Shown in pieces: positions 1 to 7,330 of a stretch of 7,355 bases of DNA. Position 1 is the stretch's first letter. Each line of letters starts with the position of its first letter. Location: NCBI GenBank assembly GCA_900546665.1, contig URDY01000048.1, positions 1 to 7,355 of the forward strand, written 5' to 3'. The translations under genes were made by a program, and so were the position numbers. Below the pieces are notes generated by a model, which ran no database searches, was not told where the DNA came from, and was given only the letters and a program-made list of their open reading frames with translations. Source of the stretch: an uncultured Paraprevotella sp. (lineage in GTDB: Bacteria; Bacteroidota; Bacteroidia; Bacteroidales; Bacteroidaceae).

Positions 1-128
1 GCTTCCGGCAACGGAGTCTTCAGAAACGCATCCTGCACCTGACCGAATATAAGACTTTGAGAAAAAGCGCTCAATGTAGAACCACATACAATGAGTAAAG
101 TAATAATTCTGTTGATAAATGATACCAT
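1..128 (-). CDS. N-terminus of a secreted/outer-membrane protein with a carboxypeptidase-regulatory-like start (partial)
   Basis: Only the first 42 codons are inside the window; the gene runs off the low-coordinate edge. The start ATG at 128-126 is preceded by a strong purine-rich site (GGGGAGG, 142-148) and no other in-frame start is near. The protein opens with a typical Sec signal peptide: a short n-region with one Arg (MVSFINR), a hydrophobic stretch (IITLLIVCGSTLSAFS), then Gln-Ser. The Cys in LIVC has Val at -1, so it is not a convincing lipobox. The following residues, FGQVQDAFLKTPLPEA, fit the first strand and turn of the carboxypeptidase regulatory-like (Ig-like) domain ('G.V.D..T..PLP.A'), which in Bacteroidetes usually begins TonB-dependent receptors and other outer-membrane beta-barrels. 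Role by context (inference): an envelope protein that exports, receives or is targeted by the neighbouring peptide. It follows a terminator, so it may be transcribed separately. The full domain content cannot be seen. Confidence 0.72.
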   Translation of the reverse strand, partial: MVSFINRIITLLIVCGSTLSAFSQSLIFGQVQDAFLKTPLPE

Positions 129-271: not shown

Positions 272-299
272 AAAAACAAATACCGGTTCTGTTAACCGG
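272..299 (-). terminator. Factor-independent terminator after the precursor gene
   Basis: On the minus strand, one base after the TAA of the peptide precursor, CCGGTT (299-294) pairs with AACCGG (288-283) around a 5-nt loop. A U-rich run (TATTTGTTTTT, 282-272) follows. The stem is only 6 bp but is G/C-rich at its base and sits correctly for ending the operon. It may be leaky. Confidence 0.62.
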
Positions 300-300
300 A

Positions 301-540
301 TTATGATTTCACACAGACATAACCTGAAACTTTAATCTCAAGATTTCCATTCCACCACGAATAATCCAGATATTGACAAGTACCTGTATAATGCGCACCA
401 TCTGTGCCATACAAGCAGGCTTCTCCTACATTCTCACTATTACATTCTTCATGGAGGTATACTCTTCCATACAATTTGGACATTTCTTCGGATGACAGGA
501 AATGGCTTTGATTCAGATTGAATTTTTTAATTTTTTTCAT
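301..540 (-). CDS. Peptide natural-product precursor, Bacteroidales GG-leader-like family
   Basis: This 79-residue protein has a Lys-rich start (MKKIKKFNLNQ) and a helical acidic patch ending SSEEMSKLYGR (16-26). That layout matches leader peptides of Bacteroidetes ribosomal natural-product precursors (TIGR04149-like, usual ending 'EM..L.GG'). If the register is kept, Leu23 is at -4 and Gly25 at -2, with Arg26 in place of the second Gly. The probable core of about 53 residues has four cysteines (33, 42, 55, 76), Gly-rich spacing (GEACLYGTDGAHYTGTC, 39-55) and a Tyr/Trp patch (YSWWNG, 60-65). There is no Sec signal peptide. It is the last gene of the operon, 98 nt after the VKOR-thioredoxin gene and just before a terminator. 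Four Cys next to a disulfide-forming enzyme suggests two disulfides; Ser, Thr, Tyr or Cys could carry sugars (inference). The family call rests on leader shape and neighbours, not a search. Confidence 0.78.
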   Translation of the reverse strand: MKKIKKFNLNQSHFLSSEEMSKLYGRVYLHEECNSENVGEACLYGTDGAHYTGTCQYLDYSWWNGNLEIKVSGYVCVKS

Positions 541-638
541 GATTCTTTAAAATTTAATATGATGCACTTTTACAGCAGAAGAGCTAATTCGCTGCCAATG
601 GGACGTGCTTGCCATTGTATATCTTGCAAGATGTATTT
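541..638 (-). other. 98-nt spacer before the precursor gene, with short inverted repeats
   Basis: This is the only sizeable gap inside the operon. On the minus strand, just after the VKOR stop codon, is a perfect 12-bp palindrome ATCTTGCAAGAT (621-632). It is followed by a 6-bp inverted repeat, CAATGG/CCATTG (612-617 with 596-601, 10-nt loop). An AT-rich stretch leads to the ATG at 540. I see no convincing Bacteroidetes promoter (TTTG then TAnnTTTG); TAAATTTT close to the start is a weak partial match too near the ATG. There is no clear SD site. The spacer could uncouple precursor expression from the enzymes through RNA processing or an internal promoter, but this is not shown. Confidence 0.35.
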
Positions 639-2189
639 CTACTTTATATCAGTATTGACAATCATAGCCAAATCTTCCAATTCATACTCATCAGGAAGTT
701 TATAGCCATTTATCAATATGGTAGGAGTAGCTACCAAAGAGGTCTTATTACGCCACCTTTTATGTTTTTCCATTTCATCTTCAACAGCTTGTGTATGAAT
801 ATTTGTTTCATTAGCTTTAATGATTTTTTTATAGTCAAACTTTTCTTTGGCGTACCAGAGTGTAAATCTTCGCAAAGCTTCCTCTTTGGGATTGTCCAGA
901 TAACAGGATATCAGATACCGGCTGCTGTCTTCCAATTCTTCATTAAATGAAGAAAAAATGTACTGCACACAGAAGTCACCCTCATTCATCTTTAAGAACT
1001 TTTCTACCCGTTTATGCATTCTGGCACACGGATTGCAATGAGGATTGCTCAGTATGGTCACCAGTATCTTTGCAGCAGGATTGCCGAAAATAACAGAAGA
1101 ATCATCAAGTGTAGTCTTATAGTACTCTCCTTTCTCAATAAGAACTTTCGCCACATCACCATTGGCTTTAAGAGAACGATACCGTTGTACCGCGCGCACA
1201 CGTTCCTGATCCGCTATCCTTGCAGAAGCAGAGTGATGCACGGCCAGGATGGTAATAGCAAAAACCATACAAGAAAGCAAACTGTCCTCAAGACCGAAAG
1301 CATAAGGCACCGCCATGCATGAAAAAATTGCAATTAGCCCCATTATCCAAATAATGACCTGCACAATGACACAGAGCACACACCAGCTTTTGGCTATGCG
1401 CCATTGATAGTAAACGCTCCAAAGCCCATAAAGCATGGCTACCCAATTGATTATTGCCACAAAGAAAGATGAAGCCGGGAATAAGGAAAGAAGCATGATA
1501 TTGGCTACAAAATAGCCCAAACCGATCTCACTCCAACTGATACCAAAAATCTTCGACACAGGTCCGTCAAGCACACTGTTGCAGTCGGCATGATGGAACA
1601 GGCTACATACCTTGTCGCCATACCTGCTCTCTCCAAACAACTGCTTCTCCATAAGCATGCAACATACCAGCACACCAGACAAACATAACACGATGCGCAG
1701 AATATCCCCCAAAACTATGCTTCCAAGATTATGTATGATTCCGATAATCACAGCCAACAGCAACATGACAGAAATACTGTATGTTTTCACAACTGAAACC
1801 AACTCATTACACCGATTTTTCTTGTAATCCGGTTCAACAGCATCCGTAGTTTCTTCTACCACAAGGGCATTGCCAGTCCACATTCTTTTAAAAACATCAT
1901 GACCCACTGTCGTTTCCTTACCATATTGCCGGTAAGTTATTGTATCGGCATCACAACCTACTCCTATAATAAAGTCACCATAGATATGCAGAATACAAGG
2001 AAAGGTTAGTTCTGACAAGTCTTTGGTATCAAAACACACACCCAAAGTTTTCACTCCATACACGTCCAGCATTTTTTTCAGTCCATACATATTATATTTG
2101 TGCGGATGTTCCTGAAACAATGCAGTCGCAAAATGTCTTGTATAATCAATCTCTAAGGCATCTAAAAAATATTCAAGGATAGTTTTCAT
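639..2189 (-). CDS. Membrane VKOR-thioredoxin thiol oxidase with degenerate C39-like N-terminal domain
   Basis: This 516-residue protein has three parts. Residues 1-115 resemble a C39 peptidase fold (YNMYGLKKMLDVYGVKT, 32-48; later FIIGV) but lack the catalytic Cys of the usual DCG motif, and Asp72 stands where the His is expected, so it is probably a non-proteolytic peptide-binding domain. Residues 135-320 are the vitamin K epoxide reductase (VKOR) domain with about six hydrophobic segments, loop cysteines C195 and C203, and the active CxxC C270-VL-C273. Residues 370-516 are thioredoxin-like, with C385-NP-C388 and a cis-Pro candidate at P489 (ATPT). VKOR-Trx fusions pass electrons from thiols to quinone and so make disulfides on the periplasmic side. 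Here the likely client is the four-Cys peptide encoded next (inference). It overlaps the preceding glycosyltransferase gene by 4 nt (ATGA). An extra helix (135-156) before the canonical first VKOR helix could place the C39-like domain in the periplasm; the topology is uncertain. Confidence 0.88.
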   Translation of the reverse strand: MKTILEYFLDALEIDYTRHFATALFQEHPHKYNMYGLKKMLDVYGVKTLGVCFDTKDLSELTFPCILHIYGDFIIGVGCDADTITYRQYGKETTVGHDVFKRMWTGNALVVEETTDAVEPDYKKNRCNELVSVVKTYSISVMLLLAVIIGIIHNLGSIVLGDILRIVLCLSGVLVCCMLMEKQLFGESRYGDKVCSLFHHADCNSVLDGPVSKIFGISWSEIGLGYFVANIMLLSLFPASSFFVAIINWVAMLYGLWSVYYQWRIAKSWCVLCVIVQVIIWIMGLIAIFSCMAVPYAFGLEDSLLSCMVFAITILAVHHSASARIADQERVRAVQRYRSLKANGDVAKVLIEKGEYYKTTLDDSSVIFGNPAAKILVTILSNPHCNPCARMHKRVEKFLKMNEGDFCVQYIFSSFNEELEDSSRYLISCYLDNPKEEALRRFTLWYAKEKFDYKKIIKANETNIHTQAVEDEMEKHKRWRNKTSLVATPTILINGYKLPDEYELEDLAMIVNTDIK

Positions 2190-2965
2190 TTCATTATATA
2201 TGACTTCAGTTCAACAGGTGACATACAGCAAATCTTTATAAGCTCTTCTCTCTGACGTCTTGTTTCTTCTTTTGACAGACTGTTAGAATTTGTACCTGTA
2301 GGATGATACAAATGAAAAAGTTCGCCATAAGATATATGGCAGGCCTTAAACCCGAGAATGGTTACCCGATGCTGACGCTCAGCGTCTTCCGGTCCCCACC
2401 CCGTAAAATGTTCGTTTTCACCGCCGCACTGCAGGTACCGCTGCTTATGAACAAGATAAGCGCCTCCACACAATTGGCGTCCAAGAAATGATTTCATTCT
2501 GAAACTCCGAAGATAACCGAAATCCCAATTCTGACGGATTTGTACCGAAATCTCTTCTGACAGTTTTATAAAACGTCCATCGTACGGATAAGATATGGTG
2601 GCTCCATTCCGTATCATTAACAGAGCCTCGAAAATCTGAGGATAATCCACAAGGACATCCGCATCCCAAATCCCTACCACCTCAGTCTGAGCCATTTGAA
2701 GAAGCAGGTTGATATAATGTGTCCTGTGAAAAACAGCATTGGTATCCTTAATAAACCGATAGTCCACTGAATTCTTTCTGCAAAGATCAGCCGCCAAGGG
2801 TTGCTCATCAGCCTCCAGTACCATAATACGGCATTGTAGAAGGGCAAGATATTTAATCACGACCTGCAGATTGGCCTTTCTCTCTTCACTATCTATACGT
2901 ACGGGAATGCCAATCGTAAGACATTCCGATATTATGGGGTTTGTTTTCATATTTTGCATGTACAT
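2186..2965 (-). CDS. GT-A glycosyltransferase, GT2/GT7C-like (galactosyltransferase-related)
   Basis: This soluble enzyme of 259 residues (254 from the alternative start) has a GT-A fold. It shows an N-terminal strand LTIGIPVR (16-23), the metal-binding DxD motif as WDADV (100-104), and GGENEHFTGWGPEDAERQ (181-198). The latter is the acceptor-site/catalytic block of the galactosyltransferase C-terminal (Glyco_transf_7C) family (GWG-E-D). HLYH (218-221) is a further metal-ligand candidate. Such enzymes transfer a sugar from a UDP donor; the sugar here could be xylose, galactofuranose or another hexose, and the acceptor could be the peptide or the first sugar on it (inference). It overlaps the upstream gene by 19 nt from the start given. 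The in-frame ATG at 2950-2948 gives the ATGA 4-nt overlap seen at two other junctions of this operon and starts the protein at MKTNPIIS, so it is at least as likely. It ends in an ATGA overlap with the VKOR gene. Confidence 0.85.
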   Translation of the reverse strand: MYMQNMKTNPIISECLTIGIPVRIDSEERKANLQVVIKYLALLQCRIMVLEADEQPLAADLCRKNSVDYRFIKDTNAVFHRTHYINLLLQMAQTEVVGIWDADVLVDYPQIFEALLMIRNGATISYPYDGRFIKLSEEISVQIRQNWDFGYLRSFRMKSFLGRQLCGGAYLVHKQRYLQCGGENEHFTGWGPEDAERQHRVTILGFKACHISYGELFHLYHPTGTNSNSLSKEETRRQREELIKICCMSPVELKSYIMK

Positions 2966-4569
2966 ATTTTCAAGGCATTATGCAATATTTCCTGTTCTGA
3001 CAAAAGACATCTGTCATCATAGGCTATTTTATTACACTCCAATATATTATTGACCTTTGTCGGGTAAAACGAACAGGCTTTCATATCAAGCAATACTTTA
3101 TGCAGTTCTACCGGTAACGGCTCATTTTCCACTACCTCACCAATCCAATCCAAATAATAGATCAGATATTCCCTTATCAAAGCAAGCTGGTCTGCATTGG
3201 CCACATTCTCTTTTTCCATTTGCGACACGCGCCACCACAGGTAACATCCAATACCGCTAAGGCCATAGAAATCCAAATCCATATCCGGATGACTGTTTAT
3301 CAAAGCAATCATCCGGTTATCGATATGGGGCAGAAAATCTACCGAAACATGGTTGCCTGTACGCTCTAATATTCTCAACAAAGCATTTTGAACGCCTCCG
3401 GTCATCGCCTCAACAGTGTAACATTTTTCATACTGTCTACTGACAGCCTCCGACAGAGAATGGTATGCCGCATTATCTGATAACAGCAAATCCATTCGCG
3501 AGGCAATCTGCGCTACAAAATCCTCTTCATTGAAATCTTCATCATTGACATGAATCCGTAACTGTGGTGTAGCGTCAAGCATTTCTGCAAGTCCAATACG
3601 GTCAGTACCTATTACAGGAATACCATGCCGCATCATTTCAATGACCGTATAGCTGCATTGCTCATGAAACGAAGGTATAACACCGATATAAGCAGACCGA
3701 TAAAGATCCTCTATCTCATCTTTGCCCGTTTTTCCGAAGAATACCACACGTCCCGGTAAAGTCCTGCTTTGAGCCAGATACGGCTGAAAGTCACCGTCAC
3801 CCACAATTACCAATTTTGAATCAGGATAAGCATCCGCAATCCGGACAAACGCCTCTATCAGATACTTCACCCCCTTGTCTTTTTCAAGACGCCCGACAAA
3901 AAGAACCGTTCTAAAACCGTCCTTATTTCCATCTTTCTGGTCGTCTATCCTGCTGCCGGCACCATTATACACAAGAAATAACTTTTCCGGTGCAACTTTA
4001 TAGTCATCTATAAGGATATCCTTGGTTTTTTGGGACAGCACAAACACAGCGTCAGCCAAATGCATGAACCGTTCTTCTGAAGTGAAACTTGATTCCACAC
4101 TTTTCTCCTGGTCATCCGACAACTCATGACCTTCCGCCATGATTTCTTTCATACGACGGATATTTCCATTCAATTCAAAACACCAGCTCAAATAATGTAC
4201 GGTCAGGACAATCATGCTTTGGGGATACCATGCCTTTAACAATATAGCTAATAAATAATGCTGGAAATAATTAAACTGGAATACTGTCCTTTCATTTTCG
4301 CGAACGTCAATGTCTCTTGCAAGAAAATAGAATATACTACGATAATACGCCTCACTCTCCATAGCAGATTTCAATGGAGGTATCAGATAATGTGTATGTC
4401 CTGAATCATCAACATTCACAGAGAATTCCTTTGTATCAGCATACATTTCCACAAAAGACACCTTCGTATCGGGTATGGCGGAAAATCCCTCAGACAACTG
4501 CCTGATGTAAGTACCTATGCCATAACCTGCCGCACGACTTGCATTGTTGAATATGAAGATATTTATCAT
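2947..4569 (-). CDS. GT4-type glycosyltransferase with extra C-terminal domain (TIGR04157-like)
   Basis: This GT-B enzyme of 540 residues has an N-terminal Rossmann half with a Gly-rich acceptor loop (GYGIGTYIRQLSEGF, 15-29). The donor half begins at the linker VYNGAG (200-205), with LFVGRLEKDKGVKYLIEA (223-240) supplying the phosphate-binding Arg/Lys. The EX7E motif EQCSYTVIE (303-311) defines GT4 retaining enzymes. The size and setting match the glycosyltransferase family described beside Bacteroidetes GG-type precursors (TIGR04157; recalled, not searched). About 130 residues after position 410 are not needed for a GT4 fold. They contain DLDFYGLSGIGCYLWW (431-446), which looks like a LanC repeat motif and resembles GLAGIG in the neighbouring LanC-like protein. 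Function by inference: it glycosylates the peptide or extends its glycan using UDP-sugars made by the first two genes. The ATG overlaps the LanC-like stop (ATGA, 4566-4569). Confidence 0.87.
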   Translation of the reverse strand: MINIFIFNNASRAAGYGIGTYIRQLSEGFSAIPDTKVSFVEMYADTKEFSVNVDDSGHTHYLIPPLKSAMESEAYYRSIFYFLARDIDVRENERTVFQFNYFQHYLLAILLKAWYPQSMIVLTVHYLSWCFELNGNIRRMKEIMAEGHELSDDQEKSVESSFTSEERFMHLADAVFVLSQKTKDILIDDYKVAPEKLFLVYNGAGSRIDDQKDGNKDGFRTVLFVGRLEKDKGVKYLIEAFVRIADAYPDSKLVIVGDGDFQPYLAQSRTLPGRVVFFGKTGKDEIEDLYRSAYIGVIPSFHEQCSYTVIEMMRHGIPVIGTDRIGLAEMLDATPQLRIHVNDEDFNEEDFVAQIASRMDLLLSDNAAYHSLSEAVSRQYEKCYTVEAMTGGVQNALLRILERTGNHVSVDFLPHIDNRMIALINSHPDMDLDFYGLSGIGCYLWWRVSQMEKENVANADQLALIREYLIYYLDWIGEVVENEPLPVELHKVLLDMKACSFYPTKVNNILECNKIAYDDRCLLSEQEILHNALKICTCKI

Positions 4570-5171
4570 TCGAGTATGTTTTTTAAAATGTAATAAGCAG
4601 AACCTCCATCTATACCTATGGGCTTGTCCAAATAGTCATCTATTGCAAATGAAGGTGCGTTTAGCAATCCTATCAGTTTTGTAGAAGAATTTATCATTAC
4701 TCTGTTTGTCAAAGCTGATTGTAATTCTGCAAGATACTGGCTGTCGAATGTCAACAAAGGCATGCCTGTTTTCTGCCTTTCTGCAAGATAGAGCAATAAT
4801 CCGCCCGCACCTGAACGCACGGAAAAATCCGTCATTCGACGCGGATCACGCTCCATGATTTTTGTATCGATTTCAGCCAAAACGGCATTCAGATCACATT
4901 CTACCCATCCCCATTCACACAACAACGTAGTGCCATAGCCGATTCCGGCCAGTCCGTACTCCAGATTGACGGGTGAATCAGTATTTACACCGTCATAAAC
5001 CTGCTGAAACAGCTCCCATGCAAATTCTTCCATCAATTTGTCCTGATATCGTTTGGCATAAGCATATAACGATATGACTATACCCATTTTTCCATGAAAC
5101 AGCCCGACATCAGACATACATGAACTGTTAAAAAGGAGATAGTCGGTTATTCTTCTAAGTTCTTTATCCAT
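4566..5171 (-). CDS. Short LanC-like protein without the zinc site
   Basis: This protein of 201 residues is about half the length of usual LanC cyclases (about 400). Motifs in order: GLFHGKMGIVISLYAYA (23-39), NLEYGLAGIGYGTTLL (69-84), SVRSGAGGLLLYLA (117-130) and PIGIDGGSAYYIL (184-196). The spaced GxxGI helices are those of the LanC alpha/alpha barrel as seen in Bacteroidetes LanC-like proteins. The zinc ligands that make LanC a lanthionine cyclase (WCYG and CHG motifs) are absent; its only cysteines are C18, C85 and C92. It is therefore unlikely to close thioether rings and may bind the precursor or partner enzymes (inference). It overlaps glf by 8 nt and the GT4 gene by 4 nt, so it is translated with them. 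Either a true short family or the N-terminal half of a LanC whose other half sits at the GT4 C-terminus would fit. Confidence 0.75.
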   Translation of the reverse strand: MDKELRRITDYLLFNSSCMSDVGLFHGKMGIVISLYAYAKRYQDKLMEEFAWELFQQVYDGVNTDSPVNLEYGLAGIGYGTTLLCEWGWVECDLNAVLAEIDTKIMERDPRRMTDFSVRSGAGGLLLYLAERQKTGMPLLTFDSQYLAELQSALTNRVMINSSTKLIGLLNAPSFAIDDYLDKPIGIDGGSAYYILKNILE

Positions 5172-6297
5172 ATAGCTTTCCCGTCAAATCTATTATTTCA
5201 TTAATGGTCTTATCCATATCGAAATACTTATACGAGCCCAATCGGCCTGTAAATACAGTATTCGGTGCTTCTTTTTCGGCCAACATGCGATACTCTCCAT
5301 ACAAAGCCGCATTACGTTCATCATTTATCGGATAGTATGGTTCTCTTCCAGACATGAACGCTTGAGGATATTCACGGGTGATGACCGTATGTGGAGAATT
5401 GACGGCATCATCATTGCGGATGTCAAACCATTTATGTTCCACTATCCTCGTATAAGGTACATTGCCTCCCGTATAATTCACGATAGCATTGCCCTGATAG
5501 CTATTGATCGGCAGATCTTCCTGCTCAAAACGTAAGCTTCGGTATTCCAACCGTCCTAACCGGTAATTGAAATATTCATCTATCGGACCTGTATATATGA
5601 TTCTTTCCGCCATTCCTTCCAAATGAGTACGATTGTCAATATAGTTACAATCAGTCTTACATTCCACATCTTCAAGCAGACCTTCAATCAATGCATTATA
5701 ACCTCCTGCCGGTATACCCTGGTACAGATCGTCAAAATAATCATTATTAAAGCTATATCGCACCGGAATACGCCTGATGATATCAGCGGGCAAATCCCGG
5801 CATGGACGTCCCCATTGTTTTTCCGTATACCCCTTGATAAGGGTTTCATACATATCCGTTCCTACCAGACTGATGGCTTGCTCCTCCAGATTACCGGGGC
5901 ATTCTGATCCGACTTCAAGACGCTGTTTCTTTATTATGGCCTCAGCTTCTTCCGGCCTGGTCACGCCCCACATCTGATAAAACGTATGCATATTGAACGG
6001 CAGGTTGTAAAGTCTGCCGTCGTAATTGGCAATGGTATTGAGTGTAAATCGGTTGAAAGTAACAAACCTGTTGACAAATCGCCAGACCCTCTCGCTGTTA
6101 GTATGAAAAATATGCGGTCCGTATTTATGAACGATTATTCCGCCTTCTTTCTCACAATACACATTACCGCCAAGATGTGGCCGTTTGTCTATCACCAGAC
6201 AACGTTTGCCATGCTGTCTGGCTATATAGGCAAAAGTGGCTCCCGACAAGCCTGAACCGACTATCAGGCAGTCATATTCCTTCCGTTTCCGTACCAT
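5164..6297 (-). CDS. glf: UDP-galactopyranose mutase
   Basis: The length of 377 residues is normal for the family. It is an FAD enzyme that converts UDP-galactopyranose into UDP-galactofuranose, the donor for galactofuranose. Visible family signatures: the dinucleotide-binding GSGLSG (14-19), DKRPHLGGNVY (37-47), the FAD/substrate motif GPHIFHTN (60-67), GYTEKQWG (156-163), GIPAGGY (194-200), EHKWF (287-291), TREYP (307-311) and GRLGSYKYFDMD (351-362). The Arg in the last motif (R352) corresponds to the conserved substrate-diphosphate Arg. It starts 10 nt after the UXS stop with a clear GAGG ribosome binding site, and overlaps the LanC-like gene by 8 nt. glf is common in capsule and O-antigen clusters, but here the partners are peptide-modification genes, which points to galactofuranose as a possible decoration of the peptide (inference). 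No disrupted motif is seen. Confidence 0.95.
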   Translation of the reverse strand: MVRKRKEYDCLIVGSGLSGATFAYIARQHGKRCLVIDKRPHLGGNVYCEKEGGIIVHKYGPHIFHTNSERVWRFVNRFVTFNRFTLNTIANYDGRLYNLPFNMHTFYQMWGVTRPEEAEAIIKKQRLEVGSECPGNLEEQAISLVGTDMYETLIKGYTEKQWGRPCRDLPADIIRRIPVRYSFNNDYFDDLYQGIPAGGYNALIEGLLEDVECKTDCNYIDNRTHLEGMAERIIYTGPIDEYFNYRLGRLEYRSLRFEQEDLPINSYQGNAIVNYTGGNVPYTRIVEHKWFDIRNDDAVNSPHTVITREYPQAFMSGREPYYPINDERNAALYGEYRMLAEKEAPNTVFTGRLGSYKYFDMDKTINEIIDLTGKLYG

Positions 6298-6299
6298 AT

Positions 6300-6305
6300 T
6301 CCTCT
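6300..6305 (-). promoter_or_regulatory. Ribosome binding site for glf
   Basis: The minus strand reads ACAGAGGAAT and then the ATG at 6297-6295 in the 10-nt gap between the first two genes. GAGG (6304-6301) is a recognisable SD core, a few bases from the start, and supports this start codon. Confidence 0.45.
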
Positions 6306-6307
6306 GT

Positions 6308-7267
6308 TTATTTACAGATTACACCACGGAAATAGTCTATGGTTCTCACCAGACCTTCATGAATACTGACCTTTGGCTGCCAGCCGTCCAGTATTTTATT
6401 GGCCAGACTGATATCAGGCCTGCGACGATACGGATCATCCTGAGGCAGCGGTGTACAAACAACCGTTGATGAAGAACCGGTTTTTTCAAGCACCATGCTT
6501 GCAAGCGTATTGATTTCAATCTCATCAGGATTACCGATATTAATCGGCCCGTGCTGTACACCATCTTGCATAACCCGCATAATCGCCTCGATAAGATCGT
6601 CAACATACTGAAAGGAACGTGTCTGCTTTCCGTTACCATGGATAGTCAAAGGCTCTCCCTTTAATGCCTGTACGATGAAATTAGAGACAACCCGACCGTC
6701 CCCGATACTCATATTCGGACCGTATGTATTGAATATGCGAATGATACGTGTGTCTACACCATACATATTATTATAGTCATGAAAAAGAGTCTCGGCGCCA
6801 CGCTTACCCTCATCATAACAACTGCGAATACCGTAAGGATTTACATTTCCCCAATACAACTCATTCTGTACGGCTACTTGTGGATCTCCATACACCTCGC
6901 TCGTTGAGGCAAGCAGAATCCTTGCGCCATTCTCTCTTGCCATTTCAAGAAGATTCATGCTCCCTATAATGGATGTCTTATACGTGTGTATCGGATTTTT
7001 CTGATACTGGACAGGAGAAGCCGGACAAGCAAAATTAAAAATCATAGCTACATTACTGACTGTCATCGGATAAATCACATCATGATTTATAAATGAAAAT
7101 TTATCATCTGACATCAGATGCGAAATATTGTTCATATTGCCTGTACTAAGATTATCAACACACAACACGCGATGTCCTTCCTTGACAAGCCTGCTGCATA
7201 AATGAGAACCTATAAAACCGGCTCCACCTGCCACAAGTATGATTTTATTGTCGGCATTCTTTTTCAT
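6308..7267 (-). CDS. UDP-glucuronate decarboxylase (UDP-xylose synthase)
   Basis: This extended short-chain dehydrogenase of 319 residues is the typical size for bacterial UXS without a membrane anchor. It uses NAD to oxidise and decarboxylate UDP-glucuronate, giving UDP-xylose in the cytoplasm. Seen: the NAD-binding GGAGFIG (14-20), ACPASPVQYQ (80-89), the catalytic STSEVYGDP (121-129) and YDEGK (151-155, the YxxxK pair), RIFNTYGPNM (177-186), KQTRSFQYVDDL (214-225) and DDPYRRRPDI (277-286). The ACPASP, SEVYGDP and DDP-RRPDI blocks separate UXS from dTDP-glucose dehydratase and GalE. The bifunctional or 4-keto-pentose-releasing alternatives cannot be fully excluded. It is the first gene of the operon, about 55 nt downstream of a good -7 promoter box, and is followed after 10 nt by glf. 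The pair supplies two unusual UDP-sugars to the two glycosyltransferases downstream (inference). Confidence 0.92.
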   Translation of the reverse strand: MKKNADNKIILVAGGAGFIGSHLCSRLVKEGHRVLCVDNLSTGNMNNISHLMSDDKFSFINHDVIYPMTVSNVAMIFNFACPASPVQYQKNPIHTYKTSIIGSMNLLEMARENGARILLASTSEVYGDPQVAVQNELYWGNVNPYGIRSCYDEGKRGAETLFHDYNNMYGVDTRIIRIFNTYGPNMSIGDGRVVSNFIVQALKGEPLTIHGNGKQTRSFQYVDDLIEAIMRVMQDGVQHGPINIGNPDEIEINTLASMVLEKTGSSSTVVCTPLPQDDPYRRRPDISLANKILDGWQPKVSIHEGLVRTIDYFRGVICK

Positions 7268-7322: not shown

Positions 7323-7330
7323 CAAATATA
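7323..7330 (-). promoter_or_regulatory. Bacteroidetes-type promoter -7 box for the operon
   Basis: The minus strand reads TATATTTG, an exact match to the Bacteroidetes sigma-ABfr -7 consensus TAnnTTTG. The matching -33 element (TTTG about 19-21 nt upstream) is weak: only TTTA is found about 18 nt upstream, close to the window edge. Transcription would begin roughly at 7313-7318, leaving an AT-rich leader of about 50 nt before the ATG at 7267. Confidence 0.55.

Follow-up and report, generated by a model that had tools for sequence, protein, structure and literature searches.

Glycocins such as sublancin and glycocin F are derived from Cys-rich peptides bearing a leader, and their production involves a glycosyltransferase, thiol oxidation and a C39 exporter, with a glycosyltransferase of the GT2 SunS type as the defining component. 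Within the Bacteroidales, the GG-Bacteroidales radical SAM (rSAM) systems, to which the models TIGR04148, TIGR04149 and TIGR04157 relate, combine a characteristic leader type with a LanC-like protein and a GT4 glycosyltransferase. Additionally, the clusters BGC3-5 described in the main text of Fernandez-Cantos et al. (2023; PMC10352776) contain zinc-residue-free LanC-like proteins, GG-type precursors and CAZymes/glycosyltransferases from the Bacteroidales. In this work we describe a 7,355-nt stretch of DNA from an uncultured Paraprevotella sp. (contig URDY01000048.1), the whole of which is referred to below as the window. Seven genes on its minus strand, occupying positions 301-7267, code in this order for a UDP-glucuronate decarboxylase (UDP-xylose synthase, UXS), a UDP-galactopyranose mutase (GLF), a small LanC-like protein (mini-LanC), a GT4 glycosyltransferase, an enzyme with a Glyco_transf_7C domain (GT7C), a protein combining C39-like, VKOR and thioredoxin domains, and a precursor peptide. 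This operon probably specifies a four-Cys precursor together with enzymes predicted to glycosylate it, oxidize it and, with the aid of genes likely located beyond the window, export it.

Comparison with known systems

The locus is glycocin-like in outline, but it is not a glycocin by membership. It has in common with glycocins a Cys-rich leader peptide and a glycosyltransferase, together with predicted thiol oxidation and probably a C39 exporter, the latter seen only in related loci. However, its glycosyltransferases are of the GT4 and Glyco_transf_7C types, which were the matches over cut-off, and no SunS-type model was seen in the results shown for any window protein. Further differences are its VKOR-based oxidase with a degenerate C39 domain, its nucleotide-sugar genes, the mini-LanC and an outer-membrane protein (OMP). 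The glycocin-like logic proposed in an initial annotation, which was made from the sequence alone, is a fair analogy, but with GT4 and Glyco_transf_7C enzymes in place of GT2 it does not extend to membership.

The likeness to the GG-Bacteroidales rSAM systems is closer, as the leader type and the pairing of a LanC-like protein with a GT4 enzyme are shared, and a C39 exporter is common to several loci. However, the window has a pseudo-C39/VKOR/thioredoxin protein and no rSAM enzyme, its cores are Cys-rich with a different pattern, its GT4 carries a helical C-terminal extension, and both the leader and the GT4 score under the curated cut-offs; by none of the three models (TIGR04149, TIGR04148, TIGR04157) does the window belong to these systems. 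An intermediate arrangement is seen in one related locus (L010), where UXS, mini-LanC, GT4 and GT7C genes are followed by an rSAM maturase matching TIGR04148 at 538 bits (cut-off 300) and by a precursor that scores 47 bits against TIGR04149 (cut-off 25), without the oxidase. Because L010 retains the sugar genes while the TIGR04148 maturase replaces the oxidase, the system looks like a variant of the GG-Bacteroidales peptide systems that uses disulfides and sugar. In the closest loci (L001-L009, see below), no relative of the L010 maturase was found. The L010 record is labelled a Lachnospiraceae metagenome-assembled genome (MAG) from buffalo rumen, and as all of its relatives here are from Bacteroidota, this assignment may be a binning error. 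The clusters BGC3-5, unlike the window, contain rSAM and pseudo-rSAM enzymes, and the main text of PMC10352776 nowhere uses the terms VKOR, vitamin K or disulfide. In a literature search, no title or abstract opening was found that described the gene set of the window.

Conservation of the operon in related genomes

The successive genes in the window are separated by +10, -8, -4, -19, -4 and +98 bases (positive values are gaps, negative values overlaps), in agreement with the single tight minus-strand operon originally annotated. An alignment of mini-LanC sequences (A1, 20 rows) led to 22 loci in species genomes. In nine of these (L001-L009), from Prevotella, Paraprevotella and MAGs named Prevotellaceae, Bacteroidales or 'bacterium P3', the mini-LanC is 54-68% identical to that of the window. 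The order mini-LanC, GT4, GT7C, oxidase, peptide, OMP is present in all eight close loci whose sequence extends that far (L001-L006, L008 and L009; L007 is cut inside GT7C). A DUF4422 gene lies between GT7C and the oxidase in L003, L004 and L009, and L009 has an additional small gene and a second peptide ahead of the OMP. As related Prevotella and Paraprevotella genomes have the genes in the same order, the likely product is an exported peptide, predicted to bear sugars and disulfides. The initial annotation had named beforehand, as evidence against such a product, homologous loci that consistently lack the peptide gene and lie inside capsule clusters; instead, the peptide gene is directly downstream of the oxidase in 8/8 loci, and no capsule gene was found in the scanned flanks. 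These comprised 20 flanking open reading frames (ORFs) from L001, L002 and L004-L008, some ORFs of these seven loci remaining unlabelled, and a Pfam scan detected no capsule flippase or polymerase among them. The proteins recognized include aminotransferase-like and biotin-synthase-like proteins, DnaB, toxin-antitoxin components, an aldo-keto reductase and one KDO transferase.

A C39 ABC exporter, full or partial, follows the OMP in 6/8 relatives; of the other two, L005 ends inside the OMP, and in L004 there is no more than an exporter-like ORF of 45 aa, after which comes a second OMP. The OMP of L001 belongs to PF14905. Directly after the exporter in L006 (19988-20206), with counterparts in L001, L002 and L008, there is a conserved hydrophobic protein of 67-72 aa; the L006 protein has no Pfam match, and a role as a bare membrane anchor or in immunity is possible. 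The mean pairwise identity is 82% for the exporter (6 loci), 60% for both the mini-LanC and the oxidase, 58% for GT4, 34% for the peptide core and 30% for the OMP, the last two being hypervariable. In two Paraprevotella species, represented by the commensal strains P. clara YIT 11840 (L005) and P. xylaniphila YIT 11841 (L008), the GT4 enzymes are 94% identical, whereas identity is 22% for the peptide core, 24% for the OMP and 51% for the oxidase, as if the downstream half had been swapped. In its strong form the system is rare, with mini-LanC matches of more than 250 bits in 1/393 sampled genomes of the order and in 2/398 of the genus of G001, the genome harboring L002, which is counted in both.

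The precursor peptide and the presumed disulfide oxidase

The precursor peptide (301-540, minus strand) is 79 aa long, with a leader of approximately residues 1-26, and its four Cys residues (33, 42, 55 and 76) all lie after the leader, in the core. The four-Cys leader-bearing peptide that had been annotated is thus present, but the leader (MKKIKKFNLNQSHFLSSEEMSKLYGR; 463-540, minus strand) matches TIGR04149 at only 14.7 bits (cut-off 25). Its cleavage site is a prediction; G25 is invariant in 15 aligned precursors, as are M1, K3, K5, F7 and L15, and the cores are divergent. A first search with the peptide yielded 4 homologues, and the 15-row alignment then retrieved 48. Together with the peptide of the window and 10 from the loci, these represent 52 distinct cores after merging of identical ones; 38 of them contain six Cys, 5 contain four, 4 contain five, and the remaining 5, which appear short or frame-altered, contain one to three. 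Four or six Cys are hence present in 43/52 cores, their pairing as disulfides being a prediction. The core of the window is of the type C-x8-C-x12-C-x20-C, and Y[TS]GxC is kept in its four nearest homologues. The peptide profile had no match up to E 1 among PDB sequences.

The presumed oxidase (639-2189, minus strand) contains VKOR, Thioredoxin_4 and Peptidase_C39 domains, all above the Pfam gathering scores, and this part of the initial annotation is upheld. The VKOR loop Cys pair, the VKOR CxxC and the thioredoxin CxxC of a VKOR-thioredoxin oxidase are all present, and C195, C203, C270, C273, C385 and C388 are invariant in 11/11 aligned oxidases. When its C39 domain (1848-2183, minus strand) is aligned with that of the exporter, all 9 proteins lack the catalytic-Cys segment and the SDP segment, and have GDF, SGF or NDF at the position of the exporter NHF. 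The Cys, His and Asp, which we take to be the catalytic residues, are retained in 6/6 aligned exporter domains, and none of the 9 oxidase domains has the Cys-His-Asp set of an active C39 peptidase. Because these residues are lost here and kept in the exporter, the oxidase domain probably serves only for leader docking; this docking, like the membrane topology of the oxidase, is predicted. The oxidase profile had no match up to E 0.01 among PDB sequences.

Among 20 wider loci chosen by oxidase similarity, 11 have, on the same strand and within 2.5 kb, a GG-leader ORF whose core contains four or more Cys, so the pairing of oxidase and peptide extends wider than the sugar genes. A GG-leader ORF in L103 was set aside as implausible. 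Three loci (L100, L102 and L094) contain 4, 7 and 4 GG-leader Cys-rich ORFs, respectively, beside a pseudo-C39/VKOR protein and without sugar genes, and can be read as part of a wider Bacteroidales family for disulfide-peptide export.

Nucleotide-sugar genes, glycosyltransferases and mini-LanC

Both of the UDP-sugar enzymes noted initially are confirmed. UXS (6308-7267, minus strand) matches human UXS1 at 353 bits as compared to 140 bits for the next kind of SDR protein in a search of PDB sequences, and GLF (5164-6297, minus strand; PF03275) scores 385.6 bits against TIGR00031 (cut-off 303.75). Of the nine loci L001-L009, UXS is in place in four and GLF in three (one cut). In the relatives' genomes (L001-L006 and L008-L010) at E<=1e-60, UXS was detected in 5/9 and GLF in 6/9, although several of these are MAGs and the cut GLF of L003 misses this limit. 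The donor-sugar genes are therefore accessory, or some MAGs are incomplete, and xylose or galactofuranose, proposed earlier as the attached sugars, need not be the sole ones, since one or other gene is missing from some relatives.

For the GT4 enzyme (2947-4569, minus strand; motif E303-x7-E311), TIGR04157 is by far the best-matching model, but the score of 348.8 bits is under the cut-off of 400. Its helical C-terminal extension (approximately residues 405-540; 2950-3357, minus strand) includes a LanC-repeat-like stretch and is present in 11/19 rows of alignment A4 (the window and L001-L010), and in none of the 8 distant rows. The GT7C enzyme (2186-2965, minus strand) contains a GWGPEDAE motif and scores 33.9 bits against PF02709 (cut-off 23). 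The top PDB matches of its profile are beta-1,4-galactosyltransferase 7 (6.3e-6, 1.2e-5 and 1.4e-4), with which it has the GWG-ED motif in common, followed by galactosyltransferase 1; the better matches (E 6e-6 to 1e-5) cover just 49 to 82 residues, and galactosyltransferase 1 is close (1.7e-4). Beta-1,4-galactosyltransferase 7 transfers galactose onto xylose in proteoglycan linkers. UXS in the same operon points to UDP-xylose as a possible donor, and given the xylose acceptor of the closest relative of GT7C, a xylose-galactose glycan is a natural, if unproven, guess. Retention of the anomeric configuration is expected of GT4 enzymes, which makes an exact replica of the animal proteoglycan linker unlikely.

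The mini-LanC (4566-5171, minus strand), of 201 aa, corresponds to about half of a LanC toroid. The LanC-like protein of the initial annotation stands as to fold, but at half length and with a score against PF05147 of 18.3 bits, under the cut-off of 23.2. With its predicted structure, LanC-fold chains occupy rows 1-23 in Foldseek and rows 1-17 in VIA-align. The family profile gave 9 matches to PDB sequences (best E 6e-4), viz. LanC proteins, lanthipeptide synthetases and chains named only as kinase-domain proteins. The LanC zinc site (C...CH) is lacking here: the CHG motif is present in 0 among the 120 listed homologues and in 1/47 rows of alignment A3, the distant L019. To the eye, the N-termini of the aligned mini-LanCs are unlike signal peptides. 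In the fetched loci, 37/49 LanC-like ORFs are either fused to a glycosyltransferase or directly adjacent to one. Among other arrangements, L120 (4819-6585) codes for a single protein with a LanC-like domain ahead of a radical-SAM domain, whereas L107 (12122-16751; Prevotella P3-122) and L109 (1190-3605; P. xylaniphila) have a DUF707-LanC-like fusion after the exporter, adjoining a gene with a weak DUF3405 match. In P3-122 these are followed by GLF, another Cys-rich GG peptide, another OMP and part of an exporter, as if the operon continued into a second peptide module. No relative of the mini-LanC or the oxidase was found in viral contigs, and as plasmid records gave just 3 weak partial mini-LanC matches, 0 of them reaching 80% coverage, there is no evidence of plasmid spread.

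Proposed pathway and alternative explanations

Based upon these observations, UDP-xylose would come from UXS and UDP-galactofuranose from GLF. The GT4 enzyme would work in the cytosol as a pair with the mini-LanC, attaching the first sugar to the core at a Ser, Thr or Cys residue. The mini-LanC, having lost the cyclase chemistry, may act as the peptide-holding subunit of GT4, and GT7C would extend the first sugar or add a second. The leader would dock on the intact C39 domain of the exporter and be cut there, and may also dock on the degenerate C39 of the oxidase, thereby bringing the VKOR-thioredoxin module to the emerging core, where it would close two disulfides in the periplasm. The variable OMP may provide the cognate exit through the outer membrane, act as a receptor decoy or confer immunity. 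Most likely, the product is a peptide that acts antagonistically, in the manner of a bacteriocin.

A broader interpretation, which we consider rather doubtful as a whole, is that Bacteroidota LanC may be a general peptide-holding module. The zinc-free mini-LanC and the GT4 with its LanC-like-repeat extension could then form a two-component peptide glycosyltransferase, which would furnish an exported, disulfide-locked peptide with a glycan of xylose and galactose while a dead C39 recruits the oxidase. It would also take in the LanC-like fusions to GT2, DUF707 and radical-SAM domains elsewhere, and would liken the product glycan to the proteoglycan linker as a bacterial parallel.

A number of points weigh against a glycosylated, disulfide-bonded and exported product. 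The reactions on the peptide, the topology and the role are predicted from gene order, conservation, domain identities, motif loss and predicted folds. No exporter is present among the window genes, UXS and GLF are incompletely represented in the relatives, and the leader ends in Y-G-R rather than the standard G-G. The five-Cys cores (the first peptide of L001, L005, L006/P0126 and P0143) leave one Cys over, which may or may not carry sugar. The GT4 extension matches the mini-LanC profile in hhalign with P=9.6e-4 but a probability of just 22%. The tally of LanC-like ORFs was seeded from the GT4-paired subfamily and is biased upward, and 12/49 even so neither abut nor are fused to a glycosyltransferase. 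Of the 20 wider oxidase loci, 8 lack a peptide by the GG-leader pattern, and the 28 GG-leader Cys-rich ORFs near the oxidase compare with 11 that lie on the opposite strand or elsewhere in these stretches, a count without a shuffled control. Lastly, the correlation between peptide and OMP identities is weak (Mantel r 0.32, p 0.04, 8 loci), with an exception in L008, where identity to L002 and L003 is 68-74% for the peptide and only 23-24% for the OMP; peptide identity showed no correlation with that of the oxidase (r 0.08, p 0.38), GT4 (r -0.16) or mini-LanC (r -0.14). With 8 loci being too few, peptide-OMP co-variation was set aside as a foundation.

Of the alternatives, the one which survives best, although we regard it as unlikely, is that the sugar genes act on a surface polysaccharide, a lipid or the adjacent OMP, and that the peptide is merely disulfide-bonded and exported, sharing the operon by chance. 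UXS and GLF are common in surface-glycan synthesis, other Bacteroidales have oxidase-plus-peptide loci without the mini-LanC/GT4/GT7C set, and the KDO transferase noted above flanks L006. However, the 20 scanned flanking ORFs include no capsule flippase or polymerase, the sugar genes are found in one constant order with the oxidase and peptide in 8/8 loci, often with 4-base overlaps, and in L010 the same sugar genes are paired with another maturase and again a GG peptide.

It is much less probable that the LanC-like protein is a hydrolase-like toroid of the endoglucanase type acting on glycans. Such a role has been suggested, in the main text of PMC10352776, for other Bacteroidales LanC-like proteins near CAZymes, but in both structural searches here LanC-fold chains take the top rows, the 9 PDB profile matches are to LanC-type or kinase-domain-named chains, and the N-termini do not resemble signal peptides. 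A lanthipeptide pathway, with the LanC-like protein cyclizing dehydrated residues, is suggested by the PF05147 and LanM similarities, all of them under cut-off, but is very improbable, as the family searches of window genes revealed no dehydratase, the LanC is of half length with CHG in none of the 120 listed homologues, and the VKOR-thioredoxin protein indicates disulfides instead.

Other features of the window and related loci

The terminator initially thought to close the operon could not be sustained. The hairpin at 283-299 (minus strand), between the peptide and OMP genes, is a weak candidate for a terminator or attenuator: it is one of 9 terminator-like sites in the window (5.0 expected, sd 2.3), and the fold of its region is only modestly better than those of shuffled sequences (z -1.58; 13/200 equally good). 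Beyond it, on the same strand, is the start of an OMP (outer-membrane beta-barrel) gene (1-128, minus strand; 42 residues, ..FGQVQDAFLKTPLPE), cut by the window edge, with an N-terminus that by eye is signal-peptide-like and resembles the OMP starts of L006 and L005. As this OMP-like ORF starts at 128 and an OMP follows the peptide in 8/8 relatives, the transcription unit probably extends beyond the window edge. At the other end, a candidate promoter box (TATATTTG; 7323-7330, minus strand) lies 55 bases before the UXS start codon and fits TAnnTTTG, which we take to be the Bacteroidales -7 consensus; a promoter scan of the window was uninformative (17 sites versus 21.7 in shuffles), and an Rfam search of it found no family. 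The genome of L002 has another locus (L096; G001:C9:40000-59524) where an oxidase ORF of 543 aa and a UXS divided over two ORFs occur together with three OMPs, a GT7C-like gene and a GG peptide with six Cys.

Significance

Zinc-free LanC-like proteins are frequent in Bacteroidales, and in the main text of PMC10352776 they are judged to be endoglucanase-like and located outside lanthipeptide clusters. If the pathway proposed here is correct, a testable function would be available for these proteins as well as for the pseudo-C39/VKOR proteins. A C39-like domain fused to VKOR, with an adjoining GG-leader Cys-rich ORF, would provide a search rule, by which candidates are present in 11/20 sampled loci. 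Bacteroidales would then produce glycosylated, disulfide-locked exported peptides by means of a toolkit unlike that of the Firmicutes glycocins.

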